Assembly (NCBI GenBank): GCA_011526015.1
Contig: WYBG01000059.1
Coordinates: 1-34,093 of the forward strand
Direction: 5' to 3'
Source of the DNA: Deltaproteobacteria bacterium
GTDB lineage: Bacteria; Calditrichota; Calditrichia; RBG-13-44-9; J075
DNA: 34,093 nt
The position numbers were made by a program, and so were the translations under genes. The notes under the pieces were generated by a model, which worked only from the letters and a program-made list of their open reading frames with translations, was not told the DNA's origin and did not search any database. Shown in pieces: positions 20,824 through 32,278 of the stretch. Within the stretch, counting starts at the first letter, position 1. Each line of letters starts with the position of its first letter.

Positions 20824-23800
20824 ATGAGTAGTTTGAAACTTAAATTATTGGTTCTGAGCCTGACTTTAGGTTTTATCGCCGTTGCAATTGCCCAGCCGAT
20901 CATTTCTGTGAATACTGACGTTTTGAACTACGGCAATATCCCGGTAAACTCGGACTCCGTGCGGGCGATTATCATTTCCAATACCGGCAACGCAGGTTTA
21001 ACCATAAGCAGCATGGCGATTGTGGGTACCAATCCCAGTCATTTTTCGCTCCCCAACCCGCCCACCCTGCCGGTGGTGGTGGGTCCCGGGGCAAGTTTGC
21101 CCCCTATAGACGTTCTTTTTCGCCCCACCTCGTTCGGGCAGAAATTTGCCGTTTTACGGATCATCAGCAACGACCCCGACCCCGACCGAGATACCCTGAA
21201 CGTGGTTTTGACCGGAACCGGCCTGGCTCCGGATATTAACGCCGCTCCCAATCCCCTGGAATTCGGGAACGTTACCACCAACTCCGAGTTGATCCTGACG
21301 GTCAATATATCGAATATCGGGAATTCCAATTTAGTCATCAGTTCTTTCCAGCTTACCGGCAGCAATGCCAATCAATTCTCCCTGATTGCCCCACCCACGC
21401 CCCCGGTTACCATTATTCCCAGCGGTACTGTGCCGGTGCAGGTGCGCTTCCGCCCCACCTCCGCAGGGTCAAAGACCGCATTTCTGCGCATTGCCAGCAA
21501 TGATCCCGATGAAAATCCCTTCGATATAACTCTAAACGGAACCGGGGTCAGCCCGACCATTTCCGTAACCCCCGCCAGCCTGAGTTTCGGTAGAGTGCTG
21601 GTGAATTCCGATTCCACCGCTACGGTGTCTATTTTCAATACCGGCCAGGGAAGCTTGTTTATCCAGAGTCTGGATATCGCCAACGATCCGGATACCCTGT
21701 TCAGCCTGGTAAGCCCGCCGCAATTGCCGGACACCCTTCCCCCGGGCGGGGGACCGCTGACCATCAGCGTCAAATTTTCCCCAAAAGCCCAGGGCAATGT
21801 ATCCGCCTTCCTGATCGTTACTCACAACGATCTTACCCAGAACCCCTTGAGCATCCCACTCTCCGGCAGGGGCGTTTTTGCGCAGATCGCGGTTTCCAGC
21901 AACGCCCTGGACTTCGGGGAGGTGCTGGTAACTTCATTTTCGGAATTGCCTATCCAGGTAACCAACACCGGCGAGGGGCCGTTGTTTATTACCGCCACGC
22001 CCATCGTGGGAACGAACGGCAACCAGTTCAGCCTCTTCAATCTGCCCCCCTTGCCCATCAAAATCAATCCCGGCGCACCCCCGGTAACCATCCGGGTGCG
22101 TTTTTCGCCGAGTACCATCGGAACCAAGCAGGCTTTCTTAGCCCTCATCAACAATGATCCGGATCCCGATGATAACCCGTTTTTCGTTTCCCTGGAGGGG
22201 TTCGGGGTAAAACCGGATATTATCGCTTCCCCCACCGCGCTGGATTTTGGTGAGGTAGTGGTTGACTCCAGCGGGCAATTGAGCACCACCATCAAGAATG
22301 TCGGGAACCTGGATCTGATCGTCACCGATATTGCGATCGTGGGAGATGACGCCAGCCAGTTCTCCTTTTTCGGGGATAGCAGCTTTACGCTTCGGCCTAA
22401 CATCGATTCCGCGGTGGTTTCAGTTCAGTTTGCTCCCACCACCGGGGGGCCTAAAAGTGCGATCTTGCGGCTGGTCAATAACACCCCGGATGAGAATCCC
22501 TACGATATTCCCCTGGAGGGAATCGGAACCGTGCCGGATATCGCCGCCCGGCCTGTGCTCCTGGATCTCGGCAACGTTTTGCTCGGCGAGGAAACAACCG
22601 GAATCGTGAGAATTTTCAACGAAGGAAGGGCGCCCCTTACCATCAGCGATACCGCCTTCGCCGGGAACCATGCTTACCTCTTTTCCATCGTTTCGATGCC
22701 CCCGCTGCCGGCGGTTCTGCCCCCGGATACTGCTATCAAGCTTCCTATTACCATCCGTTTCCGGCCTGATTCCCTGCAATTGAAAACCGCGGAGCTTCGC
22801 ATCAGCAGCAACGATCCCGACGAAAACCCGTTCATCATCACCCTCCGGGGAACCGGGGTTCAGCCCGCTATTGCCACCAATCCCGAGGTATTGGATTTTG
22901 ACAGCGTGCGGGTGAGAACCGATTCGACCCTGGTTTTGGAAATCCGCAATACCGGCTCTGCCACCCTGGTGGTGCAGGATACCTTCCTGGCCGGGGAGGA
23001 TGCCGACCATTTTTCAATCGCGAGCATTCCGCAGCTGCCTTTTTCCGTCACCCCGAACGGCGAGCCGGTTCCGATAAGCGTGCGGTTCTCCCCAAAAACC
23101 TTAGGGCCTAAGTCGGCCGCCTTCCGGATTTTCAGCAATGCTCCCCAGAGTCCCCTGGATGTTTCCTTACTGGGCATCGGCGTGGAACCGGACATTGCCG
23201 TCTCTCCCGATACCCTGAATTTCGGCAAAGTGGTGCTCAACCGCGGCGAAGATCGCAGCCTGATTTTGCTAAATGAGGGGGGCGCAATCCTCACCGTGAA
23301 CGGCGTTACGATTGCCGGGGAGAAGCCGGGGTTGTTCAGCTTCGTCAATTTGCCGGGATTGCCCTTTACCATTTTGCCGGACCAGACGGTTTCGGTTACG
23401 GTGCGCTTTACTCCCGACAGTTTGGGGGAGAAATCCGCGGAGTTACGCTTCCTCAGCGATGACCCGGACGAGCCGGTGCTGGCAGTGCCGGCGATCGGCA
23501 TTGGCGCCATCCCCATCATTACCCTGAGCGCCGATACCCTTTCGTTTGGCAATACCGGCGTGAGTTTGCTGAAAACCCTGCCGCTGCGGATCACCAACCC
23601 GGGCAGCGCGCCGTTGGAGATCAGCGACACCCTCATCAGCGGCGAAAATGGAGCGGATTTCACGCTGGTCGATTTCCCGCCCCTGCCCCTCATCATCCCC
23701 GAAGAGGGGGGAGAGCAGGAGATCCTGGTCGGCTTCAAGCCGGGCAGCCCGGGATTCAAAAATGCGCTGCTGCAAATCCTCAGCAACGATCCGGAAAACC

Positions 23801-25539
23801 CCCTTGTCGGGATTACTCTGGGCGGGCGGGGGGTCAATCGCCCGCAGATCAACGCGTTCGATTTATCGGAAGTGCGCCTGAACCAGAGCGTAACCGTGGA
23901 TGCAACTATTACTGCCGACACGCTGATCCAGTCCGTGCTGCTGAACTACGGATTCGGAAACAGCGCGGGCTTTCCGCGGCAGCTTGCCCTGGCGCAGCAA
24001 TCCCCCGGGGTATATAACGGAACCATCCCGGCCACAGACGTCACCGTGAACGGCCTGAAAATGGTTCTGGAAGTGGTCGACGGCTTCTCCATCACCACGG
24101 ATTCCACCCGGTTTGCCAGCGTGCTCATTCCCGCCGGGGCGCTGCCGGATACTTTTTCCCAGAACCAGGTCAATCGCTGGATGATGTATTCCCTGCCCTT
24201 CGAGTTTACCAGCGTTGCCAACAGCAGCATCGATGCGGTGCTGGCCGACCTGGGCGGGGAAGGGGACTTCAGCTGGCGGATTTACCGCACCGACTCCTCC
24301 GGGGTTAACTCCAATTACCACAACCGCGGGCAGTTGAATAACATGGGCGATTACGGGCGCTTCCTGCCCGGAAACGCTTTCTGGCTCTACCTTCGGGATG
24401 ACGACCAGGGAGGCATCCCTACCCGGATCATTGATTTTCCGGAGATGCGCACCGCGCCGGTGGACTCTTATACCGTTACACTTCAAGAGGGTTGGAACCA
24501 GCTCGGTTCCCCCTACGCCTTCGACGTCACCTGGAACCAGGTGGCCTCGGATTTCAAGGATTCCTTGCAGGTGTACCGTTACGAGGGCGGCACTGAGTTC
24601 ACCCTGCTGACCACCGGCGGAGGGCTTGAAAAAGTGGGTTGGACCCCCCTGGTGAACGCCAATTTTACCATCTCGCCCTGGATCGGCTACGCGGTGTACA
24701 ATAGCGCCGGCCGAAGCGTCCGGCTTACCTTCTATCCCCAGCGGCCCGCGGCGGGAGCGCCGTTGCTGGCAAAATCTCCCGAAGAAGAGAGCGTCTGGCA
24801 ACTCCAGATGGTCGCGGAGAGCGCGCTCAATTACGCTATCAGCGTGGTGGGCATGCACGGCCAGGCAAAACCGGGGCGGGACTACCTGGATTATTCCAAC
24901 CCCCCGGTGATGGGAAACGAATACGTCTCCATGTATTTCCGCCACCCGGAATGGAACGCCGCCCGCCCGGACTTTTGCAGCGACTTCCGGCCCCTGAATT
25001 CCCAGGGCGAAGTGTGGTATTTCAACATCAACAGCTCCGACCGGATCGTGGATTTCCGGTTGCGGAACATCGAAAACCTGCCCGCGAACTTCCGGGTGGT
25101 GTTGTTCGACGCGAAATACCGCAACCGTTACCACCTCAGCGAGGGGCAGCGGGTATCCCTGCGCGATCTTTCGCCCGGGGAAGATAACCGTTTTGTGTTG
25201 CTGGTGGGCACGGACAGCTTCATCGAATCGGAAAGCGGCAACGTGGCGCTGATGCAGCCTTCCGACCACGCTTTATTGGAGAATTATCCCAACCCCTTCA
25301 ACCCGGAAACCTATATTCGCTACCGGCTTGCCAGTCCCGCGAAAGTCAGCCTGAAAATTTACAACCTGCTCGGCCAGGAAGTGGCCAGCCTGGTGGATGA
25401 ATTCCAGCCCGCCGGTTTCTACGAAGTGCGCTGGGACGGGCGTACCCGCGGCGGCGGCCCGGCGGCCAGCGGAATCTATTTCTTCCGAATCGACGCAGGC
25501 GAATTTACCCAAACGCAGAAGATGATCTTGCTGCGTTGA
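20824..25539 (+). CDS. Giant secreted protein: nine choice-of-anchor D repeats plus T9SS/FlgD-like C-terminal domain
   Basis: This 1571-residue protein has a signal peptide cut after AIA near residue 23. Nine repeats of about 110 residues follow (about 26-1008), each opening like PDIxxxPxxLxFGxV and containing VRFxPxxxGxKxAxLxIxSNDPDENP, the choice-of-anchor D / ASPM-SPD-2-Hydin Ig-like type. Residues 1008-1480 form a non-repetitive region with GWNQLGSPYAFDVTW. The end (1484-1571) carries ENYPNPFNP, IYNLLGQEVASLVD and SGIYFFRI, i.e. a FlgD-Ig/type IX secretion sorting domain. It is probably delivered to the cell surface. An excellent ribosome site, GAGGAG, precedes the ATG. The repeats have diverged, so recent tandem expansion is unlikely. 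No type IX secretion gene is in the window. Confidence 0.85.
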   Translation: MSSLKLKLLVLSLTLGFIAVAIAQPIISVNTDVLNYGNIPVNSDSVRAIIISNTGNAGLTISSMAIVGTNPSHFSLPNPPTLPVVVGPGASLPPIDVLFRPTSFGQKFAVLRIISNDPDPDRDTLNVVLTGTGLAPDINAAPNPLEFGNVTTNSELILTVNISNIGNSNLVISSFQLTGSNANQFSLIAPPTPPVTIIPSGTVPVQVRFRPTSAGSKTAFLRIASNDPDENPFDITLNGTGVSPTISVTPASLSFGRVLVNSDSTATVSIFNTGQGSLFIQSLDIANDPDTLFSLVSPPQLPDTLPPGGGPLTISVKFSPKAQGNVSAFLIVTHNDLTQNPLSIPLSGRGVFAQIAVSSNALDFGEVLVTSFSELPIQVTNTGEGPLFITATPIVGTNGNQFSLFNLPPLPIKINPGAPPVTIRVRFSPSTIGTKQAFLALINNDPDPDDNPFFVSLEGFGVKPDIIASPTALDFGEVVVDSSGQLSTTIKNVGNLDLIVTDIAIVGDDASQFSFFGDSSFTLRPNIDSAVVSVQFAPTTGGPKSAILRLVNNTPDENPYDIPLEGIGTVPDIAARPVLLDLGNVLLGEETTGIVRIFNEGRAPLTISDTAFAGNHAYLFSIVSMPPLPAVLPPDTAIKLPITIRFRPDSLQLKTAELRISSNDPDENPFIITLRGTGVQPAIATNPEVLDFDSVRVRTDSTLVLEIRNTGSATLVVQDTFLAGEDADHFSIASIPQLPFSVTPNGEPVPISVRFSPKTLGPKSAAFRIFSNAPQSPLDVSLLGIGVEPDIAVSPDTLNFGKVVLNRGEDRSLILLNEGGAILTVNGVTIAGEKPGLFSFVNLPGLPFTILPDQTVSVTVRFTPDSLGEKSAELRFLSDDPDEPVLAVPAIGIGAIPIITLSADTLSFGNTGVSLLKTLPLRITNPGSAPLEISDTLISGENGADFTLVDFPPLPLIIPEEGGEQEILVGFKPGSPGFKNALLQILSNDPENPLVGITLGGRGVNRPQINAFDLSEVRLNQSVTVDATITADTLIQSVLLNYGFGNSAGFPRQLALAQQSPGVYNGTIPATDVTVNGLKMVLEVVDGFSITTDSTRFASVLIPAGALPDTFSQNQVNRWMMYSLPFEFTSVANSSIDAVLADLGGEGDFSWRIYRTDSSGVNSNYHNRGQLNNMGDYGRFLPGNAFWLYLRDDDQGGIPTRIIDFPEMRTAPVDSYTVTLQEGWNQLGSPYAFDVTWNQVASDFKDSLQVYRYEGGTEFTLLTTGGGLEKVGWTPLVNANFTISPWIGYAVYNSAGRSVRLTFYPQRPAAGAPLLAKSPEEESVWQLQMVAESALNYAISVVGMHGQAKPGRDYLDYSNPPVMGNEYVSMYFRHPEWNAARPDFCSDFRPLNSQGEVWYFNINSSDRIVDFRLRNIENLPANFRVVLFDAKYRNRYHLSEGQRVSLRDLSPGEDNRFVLLVGTDSFIESESGNVALMQPSDHALLENYPNPFNPETYIRYRLASPAKVSLKIYNLLGQEVASLVDEFQPAGFYEVRWDGRTRGGGPAASGIYFFRIDAGEFTQTQKMILLR

Positions 25540-25734: not shown

Positions 25735-27507
25735 TTAGCGGGGGGTATCATCCTCTATTCCCAACTGCGCCAACATGCGGTAAAAGTGGGTGCGGTTCAC
25801 CCCTAACACTTTCGCGGCTTCGGATTTAGAGGCGGTTTGCTTGAGGGTGCGCAGGATGTAACGCCTCCTGAATTCCATTTCTGCTTCGTCCAGGAGTTTG
25901 CCGGGCGGGATGGGAGGAACCGCAGCGGTTTCGGCGCTGATGAGCTCCGGGGGGAGGTCAGAGGCTTCGATTTTTGAACTTTTGGCGAGCACGATCGCCC
26001 GGAGGATCACGTTTTCCAGTTCCCGGATGTTCCCCGGCCAGGAGTAGTTCTCCAGAATCTCCAGCGCCTCGTCGGTAATCTCCCGGGGAGTCTTCTCCTG
26101 GGCGTGCTTTTTCAAAAAATGCTCCGCCAGCTCGGCAATATCCTCCTTGCGATCCCGCAGCGGGGGGGTGGTAATTTCCACCACCTTCAGGCGATAGTAG
26201 AGATCCTCCCGGAACTTGCCGGCGCGGATCATTGCGGTAATATTTTGATTGGTTGCAGCAATAATCCGCAGGTCGATTTTGCGCGGGGTAACACTGCCCA
26301 GCCGCTCGATTTCGCCGTTCTGCAGCACCCGCAGCAATTTAGCTTGCAGGTTTAAATTTAACTCCCCGATTTCATCCAAAAACAGGGTTCCGCCGTCTGC
26401 GGTTTCCATTTTGCCGGGCTTCGGTCTGGTCGCCCCGGTAAACGCCCCCGCTTCGTAGCCGAACAGCTCCGATTCCAGCAAATCCGCCGGGATGGCGCTG
26501 CAATTAATGGCCACAAAGGGTTTTCCGGCCCGGCGGCTGTTCTGGTGAATCGCCCGGGCCAGCAGTTCCTTGCCGCTGCCGTTTTCTCCCAGGATAATTA
26601 CCGAAACGTTGCTGGGAGCCACTTTGGAGGCCAGCAGCAGCGTCTCGAACAATCGCCGCCCGGAGCCGATGATCTCCGGGCAGGGAAATTCCCGGCGCAG
26701 GTCTGCGAACTTCATCTGCGCTTCCCGCAGCAGCTTGTTTTCTAACAGGGAGATTTCCCGGGAAATCTCCAGCCCCTGCACAATCTGGCGGGCGAAGGAG
26801 AGCAGGAAGAACAGGTCGCGCTGCCCAAATGGATTGGCGCTGTCGCGGCGATCCAGGTACACCGCGCCGAGCACCCCGCCTGGCGACATTAGCGGAACGC
26901 ACAACACCGATTTGATCCCCAGGCGGATGATGCTGGTTTTCTCCCACAGGGAAGCATCGGCGCGGGTCTGGTTCAGAAAGGCTTCCGCCCCCGGGATCCC
27001 GCTGGGCCGGGCGGCGGAGAGAGTCTGCCGGATCACGCTGGTGCTCAGCTCCCGGGCCTCCGGGTGATCCTCCGGGTTCATGTTGCGGGCGAAAATGGCG
27101 TCGATTTGCTGCTGTTCATCCACTAACACGATGAACCCGGCGTCGGCCTGCAATTCTTTGATCACCACGTCGATGGCCTTGCCTAACAGCGATTTCATCT
27201 CCGTTTCGGAAGAGAACAGGATGCCGGAGGCGTAGAGCACCTCCAGGCGGCGCTTTTCCTCTTGCAATTGCTCGAATTGTTTTTCCAGCTTCTCATAGAG
27301 GTCCAGCAGGGGATCGATCTGCCCGGCCAGCGCCTGGTGGGATTGCATCCAGGTTTTGAACAGGCGGTCCAGTTTTTTCAGCGCTTCCCCGGTAACGCCG
27401 GCCGCGGTTAAAACGGAGGTCGTTTCCATGAATCCGGAAGATACCTGGCTGACGGCGTCGCCGAGCTGTTTCTGCAATTTCTGGCGGAGTTCGGTAATAG
27501 GGGGCAT
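25735..27507 (-). CDS. GAF-domain sigma-54-dependent transcriptional activator (bEBP)
   Basis: This 590-residue bacterial enhancer-binding protein has a helical N-terminus (1-85), a GAF sensor (about 90-250), an AAA+ domain and a Fis-type helix-turn-helix. In the AAA+ domain GENGSGKE (Walker A) is near 306, GAFTGA near 352, [12 protein letters not shown] (Walker B) follows, and NIRELEN lies near the end. The intact GAFTGA loop indicates it contacts sigma-54 and drives open-complex formation; the C-terminal [20 protein letters not shown] is the DNA-binding helix. The GAF ligand is unknown. I chose the ATG at 27507, with AGGA nearby; a longer frame to 27756 would be read through the end of the phosphatase gene. 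It lies 59 bases after the phosphatase stop. Confidence 0.93.
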
Positions 27508-27566: not shown

Positions 27567-28079
27567 CTAAGACTGGGGATTCGGCGTTACCAACTCGGGG
27601 GCAAATTCTATCACCCACTTGCGTTGTTCCGGGGTTTCCGGCACCGGGCATCCTCGCGCCGCGCTCACCCGCTCGAAAGCGGCTTCCGGCTCTATACCGG
27701 CTAAAACGAGAAGACACGCTGCTATCAAGGCTGCCCGGCCGATTCCCTGGCGGCAATGAATGGCCAGGCTTTTTCCCCCGGCCAGGGCCTCCTCTAATTT
27801 TCTCAAGAATTGCCGGGTAGCGCGCCGGGAAGCCGGAACGCCGCGGTCCACCAGGGGAAAAGCTAAGAACTGCAAGCCATAGGACCGGCAGATTTTTTCT
27901 TCCTGCCCCAGGTCGAGATCGCTGATTTCATCGTTGGTGAGCAAAGAGACAATGCTAGTAAGACCGGCTTGTTGCCAGGAGCGCACTTCATCTTCCAGCC
28001 AGTCCCCGCCCCGGGGGCGGGGGGAAATGGCCAACCGCCCCGCCCACGGCCCTTCGATCCAATAAAGTTTCGTTCTCAT
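27567..28079 (-). CDS. Dual-specificity/tyrosine protein phosphatase (CDKN3-like)
   Basis: This 170-residue cysteine phosphatase carries HCRQGIGRA (H108, C109, R115), the CX5R phosphate loop, and the likely general acid D78 in [23 protein letters not shown] closes the fold. The family removes phosphate from Tyr or Ser/Thr of proteins, but small-molecule or RNA substrates are known for relatives. The ATG at 28079 has GGGAGA upstream; the longer frame reaching 28196 overlaps the neighbouring gene and is not favoured. It starts 19 bases after the ParB-like gene and 59 before the sigma-54 activator, so the three probably form one operon. It could counter the receptor kinase encoded at 28536-32033; that is inference. 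Confidence 0.88.
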
Positions 28080-28098
28080 AAAGTTCTCCCGGGGGGAG

Positions 28099-28353
28099 TT
28101 AGTTCCTGGATATGATCTCCCGGGGCAGCGAATCGACATCGACCCCCCGGTCTCGAAGAATTTTAATGCGATGATGGCCATCCATGATTGTCCCATCAGG
28201 CCGGGTCTTAAGAGATCCCGATTGACCTGGTTGGAGGGAATTGATCAGGTCCTGAGTTGACATTTTATCAAACTGATTCAGTTTTACCCGGCTCAAGGAA
28301 CTGTCCGGGTGCAGCCACTTCAGGGGCGGTTGGCTCACAGGCAATGCTTTCAA
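28099..28353 (-). CDS. Small ParB/Srx-fold-like protein
   Basis: This 84-residue protein contains LQPGQSGSLKTRPDGTIMDG then HHRIKILRDRG and SLPREI, a pattern I associate with small ParB N-terminal-like or sulfiredoxin-like proteins. DGHHR (58-62) is the likely phosphate or nucleotide-binding loop. Related folds bind CTP or ATP/ADP, and one (SerK) is a free-serine kinase. The function here is unknown. The only available starts are TTG (28353) or GTG, with no clear ribosome site. A 24-codon ATG-started frame at 28350-28424 ends TGA overlapping the TTG, allowing translational coupling, or it may be the 5' part of a frameshifted gene. Confidence 0.62.
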   Translation of the reverse strand: MKALPVSQPPLKWLHPDSSLSRVKLNQFDKMSTQDLINSLQPGQSGSLKTRPDGTIMDGHHRIKILRDRGVDVDSLPREIISRN

Positions 28354-28535: not shown

Positions 28536-31500
28536 TCACTCACCCCGTAGCGCTTCCACCACCTCCTCCATCCCGGCAAACCGCTCCCCGGGCGTTTTGG
28601 CCAGGCAGCGGGCGACGAGGGCATCCCATTTGGGGTCCATTTCCCCGGCGCGGAGGCAGGAGGGGGGCGTCGGGGTGGTGTTGAAGATGGCGTGGATGAG
28701 GGCCATCTCGTTTTCGCCGCTGAAGGGCAGTTTGCCGGTCAGCAGTTCGTAGATCACCACCCCGAAGGAAAAAATATCCGCCCGCTGATCCACCTCCATG
28801 CCGGTAACCTGCTCCGGGGCCACGTATCCCAACGTGCCGATCACCGTGCCCAGGGAGGTCATGGCGCTCACCAGCGGGGATTTGGAAAGCCCGAAATCCA
28901 TGATCCGCACCTCGCCCTGGCCATCGAGCATCACGTTGCCGGTTTTCACGTCGCGGTGGATGATCCCCCGGGCGTGAATCTCCCGCAGCCCTTCGGCAAT
29001 CTGTAAGAGAAGGCGCTGCGCTTCCGCAAGCGTCAGGGGGGAATGCTGCTTCAAATAATCCTTCAGGGTGCCGCCAGGCAGGTATTCCATGGCGATGAAA
29101 CCGCGCCGGGGAGCATCTCCCCCGGCCCCGGGAGCCGGCATCCCCGTGGAATCCGCTTCCCCAATCTCGAATACCTTGACGATGTGCCGGTGGGAAAAAG
29201 AGGAGAGCAACTGTCCTTCCCCGGCAAAACGCTTGCGGTTTTCGGGATCGTGAAGCAAGTCTTCATGCAGGATTTTCAAGGCGACGATATTTTTGTTGTT
29301 CATATCCAACGCCTTGTAAACCTGGCCCATCCCGCCCTTGCCTAAGAATTCCAGCAATTTGAAATGGGAGATGTAGCGGGATTCCCGCCGCTGCACCATC
29401 CGGCCGGCGGCGATCAACGCCAGCGCCCCGGCCCCCCCGAAAACCGCTAAGGAAACGATGGCGGAATAGAGCTTCCCCTCCCGGATGGTGGCGTGAATGC
29501 TGAGCAGGTACAGCAGCGCCAGTCCGGCGATGAAAAGCGGGTGGGCAAGGTATTGGCGGGTTCGCTGTTTTTCCGCAAAACGGAAAAACAGCCAAACGAG
29601 CAGAACGAGTAAGGGCAGCCTGGCCAGTTCCCAGGCGGGATGGGCATATTTAAGGGAACGCGCCAGGGAATATACCGATTTCCAGAACCAGCCGGCCGGC
29701 CCGGAAAACTCGGAAATTTCCAGGTAGCCGGGAGCGACGTTCTCGCGCCGGACCGTTTTTCCGCCCGGGAAAACCACTTCCAGGTCGTAGCGGCTCTGCG
29801 CATCAGGGTAGAATTGCAGCGGGAGCGGGTGCAGCGCCTCCTGGGAGGCGGCCATGCCGGGGCGGCCTTCGCCATCTTTCCGCCACAGGGTTACTTTTGC
29901 GCCAATGCCCTGGGAATTGCCGCGAATTCCGCGCAGTTTCACGCTGAGAACCCGTTCGGGGTTAAAGCTGTTTTCATACAGGTTCAAACGGAGGGTTTCC
30001 ATGTCGAGCAGCCACAAGTCCGCGTCCCCGTCGGCGTCGAAATCGGTCAGGTATGGCAGGCCCTGGTTCCGAAACCCGATTTCGGAATATTCGGAAAATT
30101 CTCCCCGGTCGTTTTTATAAAACCGGTCTTTGAAAAACAGATCCAGGTCGCCGTCGCAGTCGATATCTGCCAGGCCGGCGCCGGCATAGCTCGGGTCGCT
30201 GAATTCCAGGGTCTGGCCGGGTGAAAAATGCGCCTTTCCGTCGTTCAGAAAAAAAGCAGCCCGCCCCTGCCGCCAAACCAGAAAAATATCCTGCGCCCCG
30301 TCATTGTTCACGTCGCCGGCGGTCGCCTCGACAATGTAGGGATGCGCTTCAAAATAAGTTCCATCAATGCCGCCCGCTGCCGCCGCTTCTTTGAATCGAA
30401 AATTTCCTTCATTGAGATAGAGCTCGCAGGGATCGTTTTTATCGTACTTGAAGATGTCCGCCAGGCCGTCATTGTTGAAATCTGCTACCAGGATGCCCCC
30501 GGCGGCGGCGTTAGAAGGGGTGGGCACGCCGAAATTCAGGCCGCCGCTGAAATTCCCGATGCCGTCGTTTTCATACAGCCACAGGGGTTTCAAACTGTCG
30601 GCCTGGGCAATGGAGAGGAAGAGCAGGTCCAGGTCGCCGTCGTTATCCAGGTCTGCAAAAGAGATGGCGCCGTTGGAGTTGTCATCCATCGGCAGGGGGC
30701 GGGGTTGGTAACGGAATTTCCAGGATCCCAGGTTGAAATAACAGGAATTGCCGACCGAGGGGGTGCGGGTAAAAATATCTACCAGGCCGTTGTTATCCAG
30801 GTCGGCAAAAACCACCGTCCCATCTGCCCCCCGGGGCGGGGGCCGGAGGCGGTCGCTCTTTTCGTTGAACAGGCCGCCGCGGTTGGAATACAGCCGGGTT
30901 GGAAAATCTCCCAGGGGATGGAGGTACACGTCCGGACCGCCGTTGTTATCGAAGTCGATCATTTCCGGATAACCCCCGACTAAGTGGATATTGATCGAAG
31001 GCGATACATCTGTGAAGGTGGGGATTTTTTCCCAGGTGGTGCCGTAAATTCCGCCGGTGGTGAGGAAATAGAGGCGGTAGGCGTCCCCGTTGCGGAGGCT
31101 TTGCAGCCCCAGCAGTGTTGAGGAGGTATTGTTGGGAATTTTTTGATACAAAGACCATTCAGCGCCGTTATAGCGCAGAATATCCCCGCCGTGGCTGATA
31201 ATCCAGCCCTCCGTGGGGGAAATCATCTCCACGTCGCGCAGGTAGGAAGCAACCGGGCAGGGCATCGAATCCCAGGCGGCGCCGTCGTAATGCCAGATGC
31301 CCCGGCTGCCCACCGCCCAGCCATCCGTAGGGGAGAGGAAGCTGAAATTCATGATAAAACTGCGGGAATCCGCTTGGCGGACCGGGGTGGAGCGCCAGCT
31401 TTTTCCGTCAAAATGGAAAATGGCCCCGTTGCGGCCGCCTATCCAAATATCGCCGGGAGAGTTGAGCTTCAAGGCGCGGAAAATCTGCTCGGTCAGTTTC

Positions 31501-32033
31501 TGTTGAAGCCGCCAGCGAGCGCCGTCATAGAAATATACCAATCCGTCCTGCCCGGCCACGTACCCTTTGGTGAGATTGCCCTCGCGATACATTTTCAGCC
31601 GGAACATCACCAGGTCGTCACCGGGATCGTCCAGCGCCTGGGGAAAGTCGATTTTTTGCCATTCCCGCCCGTTAAAGCGGTACATGGTCTTTTTCCAGTT
31701 TTTGACCTCGTGCCCTAACGCCCACACCTCGCTATCGGAAAGCGCATCCACACTGAGCATTTCTACAATGGTCTGGGTGAAGGCGGAAGCGTCTAACATC
31801 TTCCGCGCCTGTTTGCCGTCATAGTGATAAACCCCGCGGTTGGTAGAGAACCAGATCGAAGAATTGCTCACCACCGAGAGGGTGTAGCCGTATTCGCCTG
31901 GCTCGAAGGGGATTAACTGGTAGAAAGTGGGGGAGGTCCGGGAAAAAGCCGCTGAAAAGGCCAGGCAGAAGCATAGCGCCGCCAGCTCACGAACGCCGGC
32001 GCGGGCAGGGGTCGATGATTTTTTAATCGGCAT
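28536..32033 (-). CDS. Receptor-type Ser/Thr kinase: two beta-propellers, ASPIC-like domain, 3 TM, C-terminal kinase
   Basis: This 1165-residue protein has a signal peptide, then six or seven YDGxxW propeller repeats (about 40-340), then seven FG-GAP/VCBS motifs of the DxDxDGxxD type between about 356 and 665 (DFDNNGGPD, DLDNNGLVD, DLDNDGDLD, DFNNDGLAD, DVNNDGAQD, DIDCDGDLD, DFDADGDAD). NSQGIGAKVTLW and YDLEVVFPGGKTVR resemble an UnbV/ASPIC domain. About three membrane helices follow (770-875), then a kinase domain from about 893: GKGGMGQVY, VALKIL, HRDVKTGN near 1026, DFGLSK near 1046, GYVAPEQ. All catalytic residues are present. The large sensor is predicted to lie outside the membrane and the kinase inside, the reverse of most bacterial kinases with an N-terminal catalytic domain. 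Downstream genes encode the ParB-like protein, a phosphatase and a sigma-54 activator. Confidence 0.86.
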   Translation of the reverse strand: MPIKKSSTPARAGVRELAALCFCLAFSAAFSRTSPTFYQLIPFEPGEYGYTLSVVSNSSIWFSTNRGVYHYDGKQARKMLDASAFTQTIVEMLSVDALSDSEVWALGHEVKNWKKTMYRFNGREWQKIDFPQALDDPGDDLVMFRLKMYREGNLTKGYVAGQDGLVYFYDGARWRLQQKLTEQIFRALKLNSPGDIWIGGRNGAIFHFDGKSWRSTPVRQADSRSFIMNFSFLSPTDGWAVGSRGIWHYDGAAWDSMPCPVASYLRDVEMISPTEGWIISHGGDILRYNGAEWSLYQKIPNNTSSTLLGLQSLRNGDAYRLYFLTTGGIYGTTWEKIPTFTDVSPSINIHLVGGYPEMIDFDNNGGPDVYLHPLGDFPTRLYSNRGGLFNEKSDRLRPPPRGADGTVVFADLDNNGLVDIFTRTPSVGNSCYFNLGSWKFRYQPRPLPMDDNSNGAISFADLDNDGDLDLLFLSIAQADSLKPLWLYENDGIGNFSGGLNFGVPTPSNAAAGGILVADFNNDGLADIFKYDKNDPCELYLNEGNFRFKEAAAAGGIDGTYFEAHPYIVEATAGDVNNDGAQDIFLVWRQGRAAFFLNDGKAHFSPGQTLEFSDPSYAGAGLADIDCDGDLDLFFKDRFYKNDRGEFSEYSEIGFRNQGLPYLTDFDADGDADLWLLDMETLRLNLYENSFNPERVLSVKLRGIRGNSQGIGAKVTLWRKDGEGRPGMAASQEALHPLPLQFYPDAQSRYDLEVVFPGGKTVRRENVAPGYLEISEFSGPAGWFWKSVYSLARSLKYAHPAWELARLPLLVLLVWLFFRFAEKQRTRQYLAHPLFIAGLALLYLLSIHATIREGKLYSAIVSLAVFGGAGALALIAAGRMVQRRESRYISHFKLLEFLGKGGMGQVYKALDMNNKNIVALKILHEDLLHDPENRKRFAGEGQLLSSFSHRHIVKVFEIGEADSTGMPAPGAGGDAPRRGFIAMEYLPGGTLKDYLKQHSPLTLAEAQRLLLQIAEGLREIHARGIIHRDVKTGNVMLDGQGEVRIMDFGLSKSPLVSAMTSLGTVIGTLGYVAPEQVTGMEVDQRADIFSFGVVIYELLTGKLPFSGENEMALIHAIFNTTPTPPSCLRAGEMDPKWDALVARCLAKTPGERFAGMEEVVEALRGE

Positions 32034-32130: not shown

Positions 32131-32278
32131 TGTACTATCACGTGACCTCTGAGAATTGTCAATGCTGTGAACCGGAGAGTGGGAGAAGCGGAGAATGGGA
32201 GACGCAAGTCTCCGTTTCTCCCGCTCTCCCATTCTCCGATTCACCTTCTCAAATTCTCACAGGTCAGGTGATAGTACA
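32131..32278. mobile_element. MITE-like 148-bp hairpin element with 27-bp TIRs and 10-bp TSD
   Basis: The left end tgtactatcacgtgacctct and the right end (reverse complement tgtactatcacctgacctgt) match at 25 of the first 27 bases, and complementarity continues less perfectly into the centre through words like ggagagtgggagaagcgg. The exact duplication ccctttatcg flanks both ends (32121-32130 and 32279-32288). It encodes no protein, so movement would need a transposase from elsewhere. A truncated inverted relative is at 25586-25709. It lies between the cytochrome and kinase genes. Confidence 0.85.

Follow-up and report, generated by a model that had tools for sequence, protein, structure and literature searches.

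The 34,093-nucleotide stretch analyzed here (the window; contig WYBG01000059.1 of GenBank assembly GCA_011526015.1, a Deltaproteobacteria bacterium assigned by GTDB to Calditrichota, class Calditrichia, RBG-13-44-9, J075) carries on its minus strand a gene for a receptor Ser/Thr kinase, at positions 28536 to 32033, in a single open reading frame with an ATG start that encodes 1165 amino acids. From the N-terminus, the protein has a signal-peptide-like segment, two propellers, an ASPIC-like domain, three hydrophobic helices, and a Hanks-type kinase domain; genes for a phosphatase and a GAF-sigma54 transcription activator lie beyond its 3' end on the same strand. An earlier interpretation made without database searches (the sequence-only reading) had identified this frame, without naming its strand, as an outside-in receptor kinase. 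The frame was confirmed, and the earlier interpretation was supported in part: the reading as an outside-in receptor kinase holds, with both propellers and the ASPIC-like module placed ahead of a kinase whose motifs are intact.

The kinase domain occupies residues ~889 to 1162 (positions 28548 to 29369, minus strand). Residues 892 to 1158 matched the Pfam Pkinase model (PF00069) with 182.2 bits against a cut-off of 31.7 (E = 1.7e-53), and the nearest solved kinase was PknB. The complete catalytic core read from the sequence was present, with the Gly loop at residue 898, the VALK lysine at Lys920, the alphaC Glu at 939, HRD at 1026, Asn1033, DFG at 1046, and APE at 1072, and these motifs were mostly invariant among seven homologues. 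Judged by its motifs, the kinase is intact, and phosphotransferase activity on Ser/Thr is predicted. The model for PknB/PASTA kinases (NF033483) gave 270 bits against a cut-off of 450, on the kinase part only, with no PASTA match. A Pfam search of the protein likewise found no Reg_prop, Y_Y_Y, or receiver domain, and Pkinase was present instead of HisKA/HATPase_c.

The first propeller (residues ~36 to 340; positions 31014 to 31928, minus strand) is Ycf48-like. Its profile matched the Ycf48 structure 5ojr with an E value of 2.3e-16, and the matches to 5ojr and 2xbg spanned 2e-16 to 7e-16. [YF][DN]G motifs lie at residues 71, 120, 169, 208, 249, and 288, and five of the six continue as xxW; shuffled sequence contained 1.3 on average, and as many as six were reached in 8 of 5000 shuffles, which bears out the YDGxxW repeats noted earlier. 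The Pfam model PSII_BNR was above its cut-off in two homologues (L077 and L079) and below it in the first propeller of the window protein. The second propeller (residues ~346 to 688; positions 29970 to 30998, minus strand) is of the FG-GAP type, with DxDxDG-type motifs at residues 360, 411, 461, 518, 574, 623, and 664, spaced 41 to 57 residues apart. Shuffled sequence contained a mean of 0.008 such motifs and at most 1 in any shuffle, FG-GAP_3 matched in five stretches (1.6e-32, 112 bits), and the key Asp/Asn residues did not vary among seven homologues, the most distant of which is 27% identical. Together with the CRTAC1 fold match described below, these statistics upheld the FG-GAP propeller with seven motifs that had been proposed.

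The segment next to the membrane (residues ~692 to 782; positions 29688 to 29960, minus strand) had been called UnbV/ASPIC-like. A profile of seven ectodomains aligned with cartilage acidic protein 1 (CRTAC1; 9etn) with an E value of 1e-18, over profile positions 319 to 731, and reached its ASPIC end; UnbV_ASPIC (PF07593) itself scored 12.1 bits in the window protein against a gathering score of 23.4, and 15.1 and 19.5 bits in homologues. Because the score lies below the threshold in the window protein and is higher, at 19.5 bits, in the homologue L079, the segment is termed ASPIC-like. The proposed structural check was likewise borne out in part. An AlphaFold2 model of residues 346 to 790, built with more distant sequences than the attempt on the whole ectodomain, had moderate confidence (predicted local distance difference test [pLDDT], 61; predicted template modeling score, 0.62), with the ASPIC part mostly below 50. 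Its top Protein Data Bank match in Foldseek was CRTAC1 (2.5e-11), followed by calcium-binding N-acetylglucosamine (GlcNAc) lectins and integrins. The model of the whole ectodomain, made from two sequences, had a pLDDT of 34 and was not used. Since there is no confident ectodomain model, blade counts were taken from motifs and homologues. The closest solved relatives, by profile comparison, are CRTAC1 for the second propeller and the ASPIC part and Ycf48 for the first propeller.

Two other accounts of what such an ectodomain might read bear on these results. The ectodomain is large, and among solved structures its second propeller comes closest to CRTAC1, calcium lectins, and integrin alpha chains; the module might therefore serve adhesion or cell contact, its integrin- or CRTAC1-like propellers binding a surface protein of a neighboring cell or of the matrix and the kinase reporting the contact. 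We hold this to be rather unlikely: the likeness to adhesion proteins is at the level of fold and repeat, GlcNAc-binding lectins match about equally well, and no partner adhesin is conserved beside the kinase gene. Calcium itself might also be the signal, with the DxDxDG blades unloading at low calcium and so altering kinase activity, and the conservation of seven intact calcium-blade motifs across the family would suit this very improbable scheme. However, Dx[DN]xDG sites are commonly structural (PMC3123361), and the motifs are no mark of a calcium sensor, since kinase-free FG-GAP homologues carry them as well. By analogy with such sites, a structural role is likelier than a signaling one for calcium bound by these blades.

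The topology is compatible with a receptor that carries its kinase on the inside. A hydrophobic segment at residues 12 to 30 follows basic residues in the N-terminus (residues 1 to 31; positions 31941 to 32033, minus strand); the signal peptide proposed for this region is rated signal-peptide-like, on the hydropathy peak. Hydropathy also bore out the roughly three membrane helices, which lie at residues 803 to 821, 832 to 850, and 858 to 876 (region 803 to 876; positions 29406 to 29627, minus strand). Because the number of helices is odd and basic residues follow helices 1 and 3, the kinase was placed in the cytoplasm. In a second group of FG-GAP kinases (L077:5038-8652 and L079:3438-7013), the N-termini resemble lipoprotein signal peptides (e.g., LINAC), unlike that of the window protein.

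The full architecture was present in 5 of 40 Calditrichota genomes, in 8 proteins from three families. The closest named relative, from Calditrichaceae bacterium MAG_33 (L006), had 81% identity along the entire chain, and its locus shares with the window a cytochrome gene upstream of the kinase and the activator gene downstream. Full-length homologues in other families of the class (G026 and G027) had 42 to 43% identity to the window protein, and a second group of homologues (G026:C6, G027:C128, and G030:C90) had 27 to 33%. Conservation of the whole chain at 42 to 43% identity in other families indicates that the fusion is real and maintained, and by these comparisons the window kinase is a member of a conserved family rather than a one-off. 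An artificial fusion, by misassembly or sequencing error, of a gene for a secreted CRTAC1-like protein with a distinct kinase gene was considered, because the genome is a fragmented metagenome-assembled genome (MAG) of 624 contigs and the G030 homologue (L075/L076; C304 and C292) is split by an in-frame TAG and lies on two contig ends. This explanation is hardly credible and was rejected: six more uninterrupted full-length frames, with 27 to 81% identity over the whole length, occur in four other genomes. The G030 case may itself reflect an error or gene decay.

A tree of 53 Ser/Thr kinase (STK) domains placed 17 C-terminal kinases in one clade with support of 100/100. Their sensors were Reg_prop/Y_Y_Y in 10 cases, FG-GAP in 6, and CHASE2 in 1. 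The rule that most Hanks kinases carry the catalytic domain first, on which the sequence-only reading had relied, holds here: 34 of the 53, all among the 36 outside the clade, were N-terminal or stand-alone, the two outliers being L078 (FG-GAP) and L028 (C-terminal, with a sensor labeled CHASE2 without a Pfam test). The window kinase was nearest to G000:C434, a kinase with a Reg_prop sensor from the same genome (75% identity, support of 97/95), whereas its ectodomain was nearest to those of G026 and G027; sensors have therefore been recombined among these kinases. A single clade of FG-GAP kinases was also rejected by the approximately unbiased test (P = 0.011), in which the group was set by architecture and which was run after the tree had been seen. 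Exchange across extracytoplasmic sensor types is the pattern expected of receptor input. The CHASE2 kinase inside the C-terminal clade (L036:3588-5603; G005:C490) belongs to a genome in which the GAF activator is encoded at a separate locus.

The FG-GAP/ASPIC ectodomain also occurs upstream of transmembrane helices, GAF domains, and histidine kinases across the class, for instance in C452 of the genome that holds the window (L039:2855-6187) and at the loci L050 to L062 and L093 to L114, and FG-GAP/ASPIC histidine kinases were found in another phylum (L220, L223, L227, L230, and L236). L237:29-3664 (G451:C285), from that phylum as well, has both propellers, an ASPIC-like region, and a tail, read by eye, that resembles a histidine kinase ATPase. 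The earlier statement that secreted proteins are the usual setting of FG-GAP/ASPIC modules was thus incomplete, for the module is an established kinase input. That kinases of two unrelated types share it as input is good evidence for a sensing function.

How new this arrangement is was judged from genomes and from the literature. Among the FG-GAP loci that were opened in ~345 genomes of other phyla and in 82 genomes of one FG-GAP-rich phylum, no FG-GAP/STK fusion was seen at the cut-offs applied. The search outside Calditrichota, a small sample of ~435 genomes in all, scored in its broad part only the best two candidates per genome, and the phyla of G310, G094, G097, and G219, covered by 1 to 8 genomes each, add little. 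A literature search, thin on subscription journals, found no published description of the architecture or of a relevant FG-GAP/ASPIC kinase. FG-GAP is absent from a 2005 survey of the architectures of bacterial STKs (PMC1262709), and in cyanobacterial STKs accessory domains are mostly C-terminal, with FHA and CHASE2 as exceptions (PMC2176072). The order of an N-terminal sensor and a C-terminal kinase is therefore already known. The protein, which had been thought possibly a new domain architecture, is a new arrangement among receptor kinases, real and conserved, but not categorically new.

Several known systems resemble it in part. The hybrid two-component system (HTCS) sensors of Bacteroidetes have two seven-blade propellers and a Y_Y_Y domain and bind oligosaccharides (PMC3243724); like the window protein, they combine a periplasmic two-propeller sensor of ~700 to 900 amino acids, a smaller juxtamembrane domain, and a cytoplasmic kinase coupled to transcription. 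The window protein differs in having Ycf48-like and FG-GAP propellers rather than Reg_prop, an ASPIC-like domain rather than Y_Y_Y, and a Hanks Ser/Thr kinase rather than a histidine kinase, and it lacks the receiver and helix-turn-helix domains that HTCS proteins carry in one chain. PknB/PASTA kinases are likewise single-chain transmembrane Ser/Thr kinases with an extracytoplasmic sensor, but in the window protein the order is reversed (sensor N-terminal, kinase C-terminal), PASTA repeats are absent, and there are three transmembrane helices. The CHASE2-STKs of cyanobacteria (PMC2176072), represented here in the same kinase clade by the G005 member, have the N-terminal extracytoplasmic sensor and the C-terminal Ser/Thr kinase, with CHASE2 in place of the propellers. 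CRTAC1 and the secreted bacterial FG-GAP/ASPIC proteins share the FG-GAP calcium propeller followed by ASPIC, 9etn being the top match by both sequence profile and fold; unlike the window protein, they are secreted and have neither a kinase nor a Ycf48-like first propeller. The Calditrichota FG-GAP/ASPIC histidine kinases (e.g., L039, C452) have the same module ahead of their membrane helices and kinase domain, but their output is a histidine kinase, and those examined lack the first propeller. In PknS-EcfK of Xanthomonas citri, a transmembrane Hanks kinase, PknS, directly phosphorylates a sigma factor (PMC13147305), which is a precedent for a Hanks kinase that may act directly on a transcription regulator; that regulator is an extracytoplasmic function sigma factor, whereas the candidate in the window is a sigma54 activator.

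This candidate output partner is a GAF-sigma54 enhancer-binding protein of 590 amino acids (positions 25735 to 27507, minus strand; Pfam GAF, Sigma54_activat, and HTH_8). A Pfam search of the activator found no receiver domain, so it does not fit an NtrC-type two-component partner. The corresponding neighbor in L006 was 93% identical. The activator is the next conserved gene after the kinase in G000, G002, and G001, the last of which has a Reg_prop sensor, and a 31% relative adjoins the kinase in G030:C90. Strong orthologues were found in 12 of the 40 genomes: in each of the 10 that have the kinase clade and in 2 of the 30 that lack it (Fisher test, 8e-8, not corrected for phylogeny or for MAG incompleteness). 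More broadly, 17 of the 23 GAF activators in the family lay within 5 kb of an STK gene, against 0.5 expected. That pairing (G000 to G006, e.g., G002:C8, G001:C454, G003:C10, and G006:C6) includes ordinary N-terminal kinases and is family-wide. Residue 23 of the activator, in an N-terminal helix, was either Ser or Thr in all 10 orthologues and is a candidate phosphosite only.

Several observations weigh against a kinase that acts through this activator or against the receptor reading as a whole. Stratified by family (by hand), the co-occurrence reached only ~P = 0.002. The activator lies at a separate locus in G003, G005, G024, G026, and G027 and is ~7 kb away in G032, while G022 and G023 encode the activator but no kinase of the clade. 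A search of the window and L006 for sigma54 promoters gave nothing above chance, metabolic neighbors vary between genomes, the neighbors in L073 and L074 are unrelated, and the low-confidence model of the whole ectodomain belongs here as well. Some of these points would suit a receptor kinase with other, PknB-like substrates in cell wall synthesis or metabolism, next to which the activator is a mere neighbor sensing its own GAF ligand: the two genes are apart in five genomes that have both, the activator has a GAF domain of its own and neither a receiver nor an FHA domain, and PknB is the solved kinase that the kinase domain most resembles. We consider this account unlikely, though the most serious of the alternatives, given that the adjacency of kinase and activator persists across different sensors (L034) and given the co-occurrence and the pairing at family loci reported above. 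The kinase is probably paired with the activator.

The other features of the locus contributed less. Between the kinase and the activator lies a gene for a phosphatase of the DSP/PTP type (positions 27567 to 28196, minus strand; PTP-SAK, 1.9e-8). As a conserved partner of the kinase it was rejected, since neither L006 nor any other kinase locus in the comparison has a counterpart. The gene upstream of the kinase, for a NapC-like cytochrome, is common only to the window and its close relative L006. Since the neighboring metabolic genes differ between genomes, the gene context names no ligand. A sigma70-like promoter match (positions 32134 to 32162, minus strand), ~100 bp upstream of the kinase start codon, has 10 of 12 consensus bases and is weak, because 5 such sites were found against 2.0 expected. 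Farther along, positions 20824 to 25539 encode a 1571-residue protein with many immunoglobulin domains of the ASH/HYDIN/Cep192 type and a type IX secretion tail.

Taken together, we favor, as a reasonably likely account, an outside-in transmembrane receptor Ser/Thr kinase that binds an envelope ligand on a propeller and phosphorylates the GAF-sigma54 activator. The signal peptide would export the ectodomain, with its Ycf48-like propeller, its calcium-blade FG-GAP propeller, and its membrane-proximal ASPIC-like beta-sandwich. A propeller face would bind a ligand of the envelope, for which a glycan or a surface protein is the most plausible candidate, and the resulting change in ectodomain packing or dimerization could be relayed through the juxtamembrane ASPIC-like domain and the three helices. 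Cytoplasmic kinase domains would thereby be brought together for trans-autophosphorylation, and the active kinase would phosphorylate the neighboring, co-occurring activator and so turn on a sigma54 regulon. A broader and more tentative proposal, which we put forward as possible, is that the C-terminal Hanks clade of Calditrichota serves as a common output for CRTAC1-like, HTCS-like, and CHASE2 receptors, with Ser/Thr signaling to a dedicated GAF-sigma54 activator that has no receiver, as a Ser/Thr counterpart of a two-component system.

The points of greatest interest, both missed by the sequence-only reading, are the exchangeable sensors on one kinase clade and the coupling of that clade to a sigma54 activator. 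That histidine kinases and Ser/Thr kinases alike take a CRTAC1-like FG-GAP/ASPIC module as input suggests that this pair of domains, very common in bacteria but functionally obscure, has a role in sensing. If the link between kinase and activator is true, Calditrichota would have a Ser/Thr route from an extracellular receptor to sigma54-dependent transcription, made by receptor swapping on one kinase.

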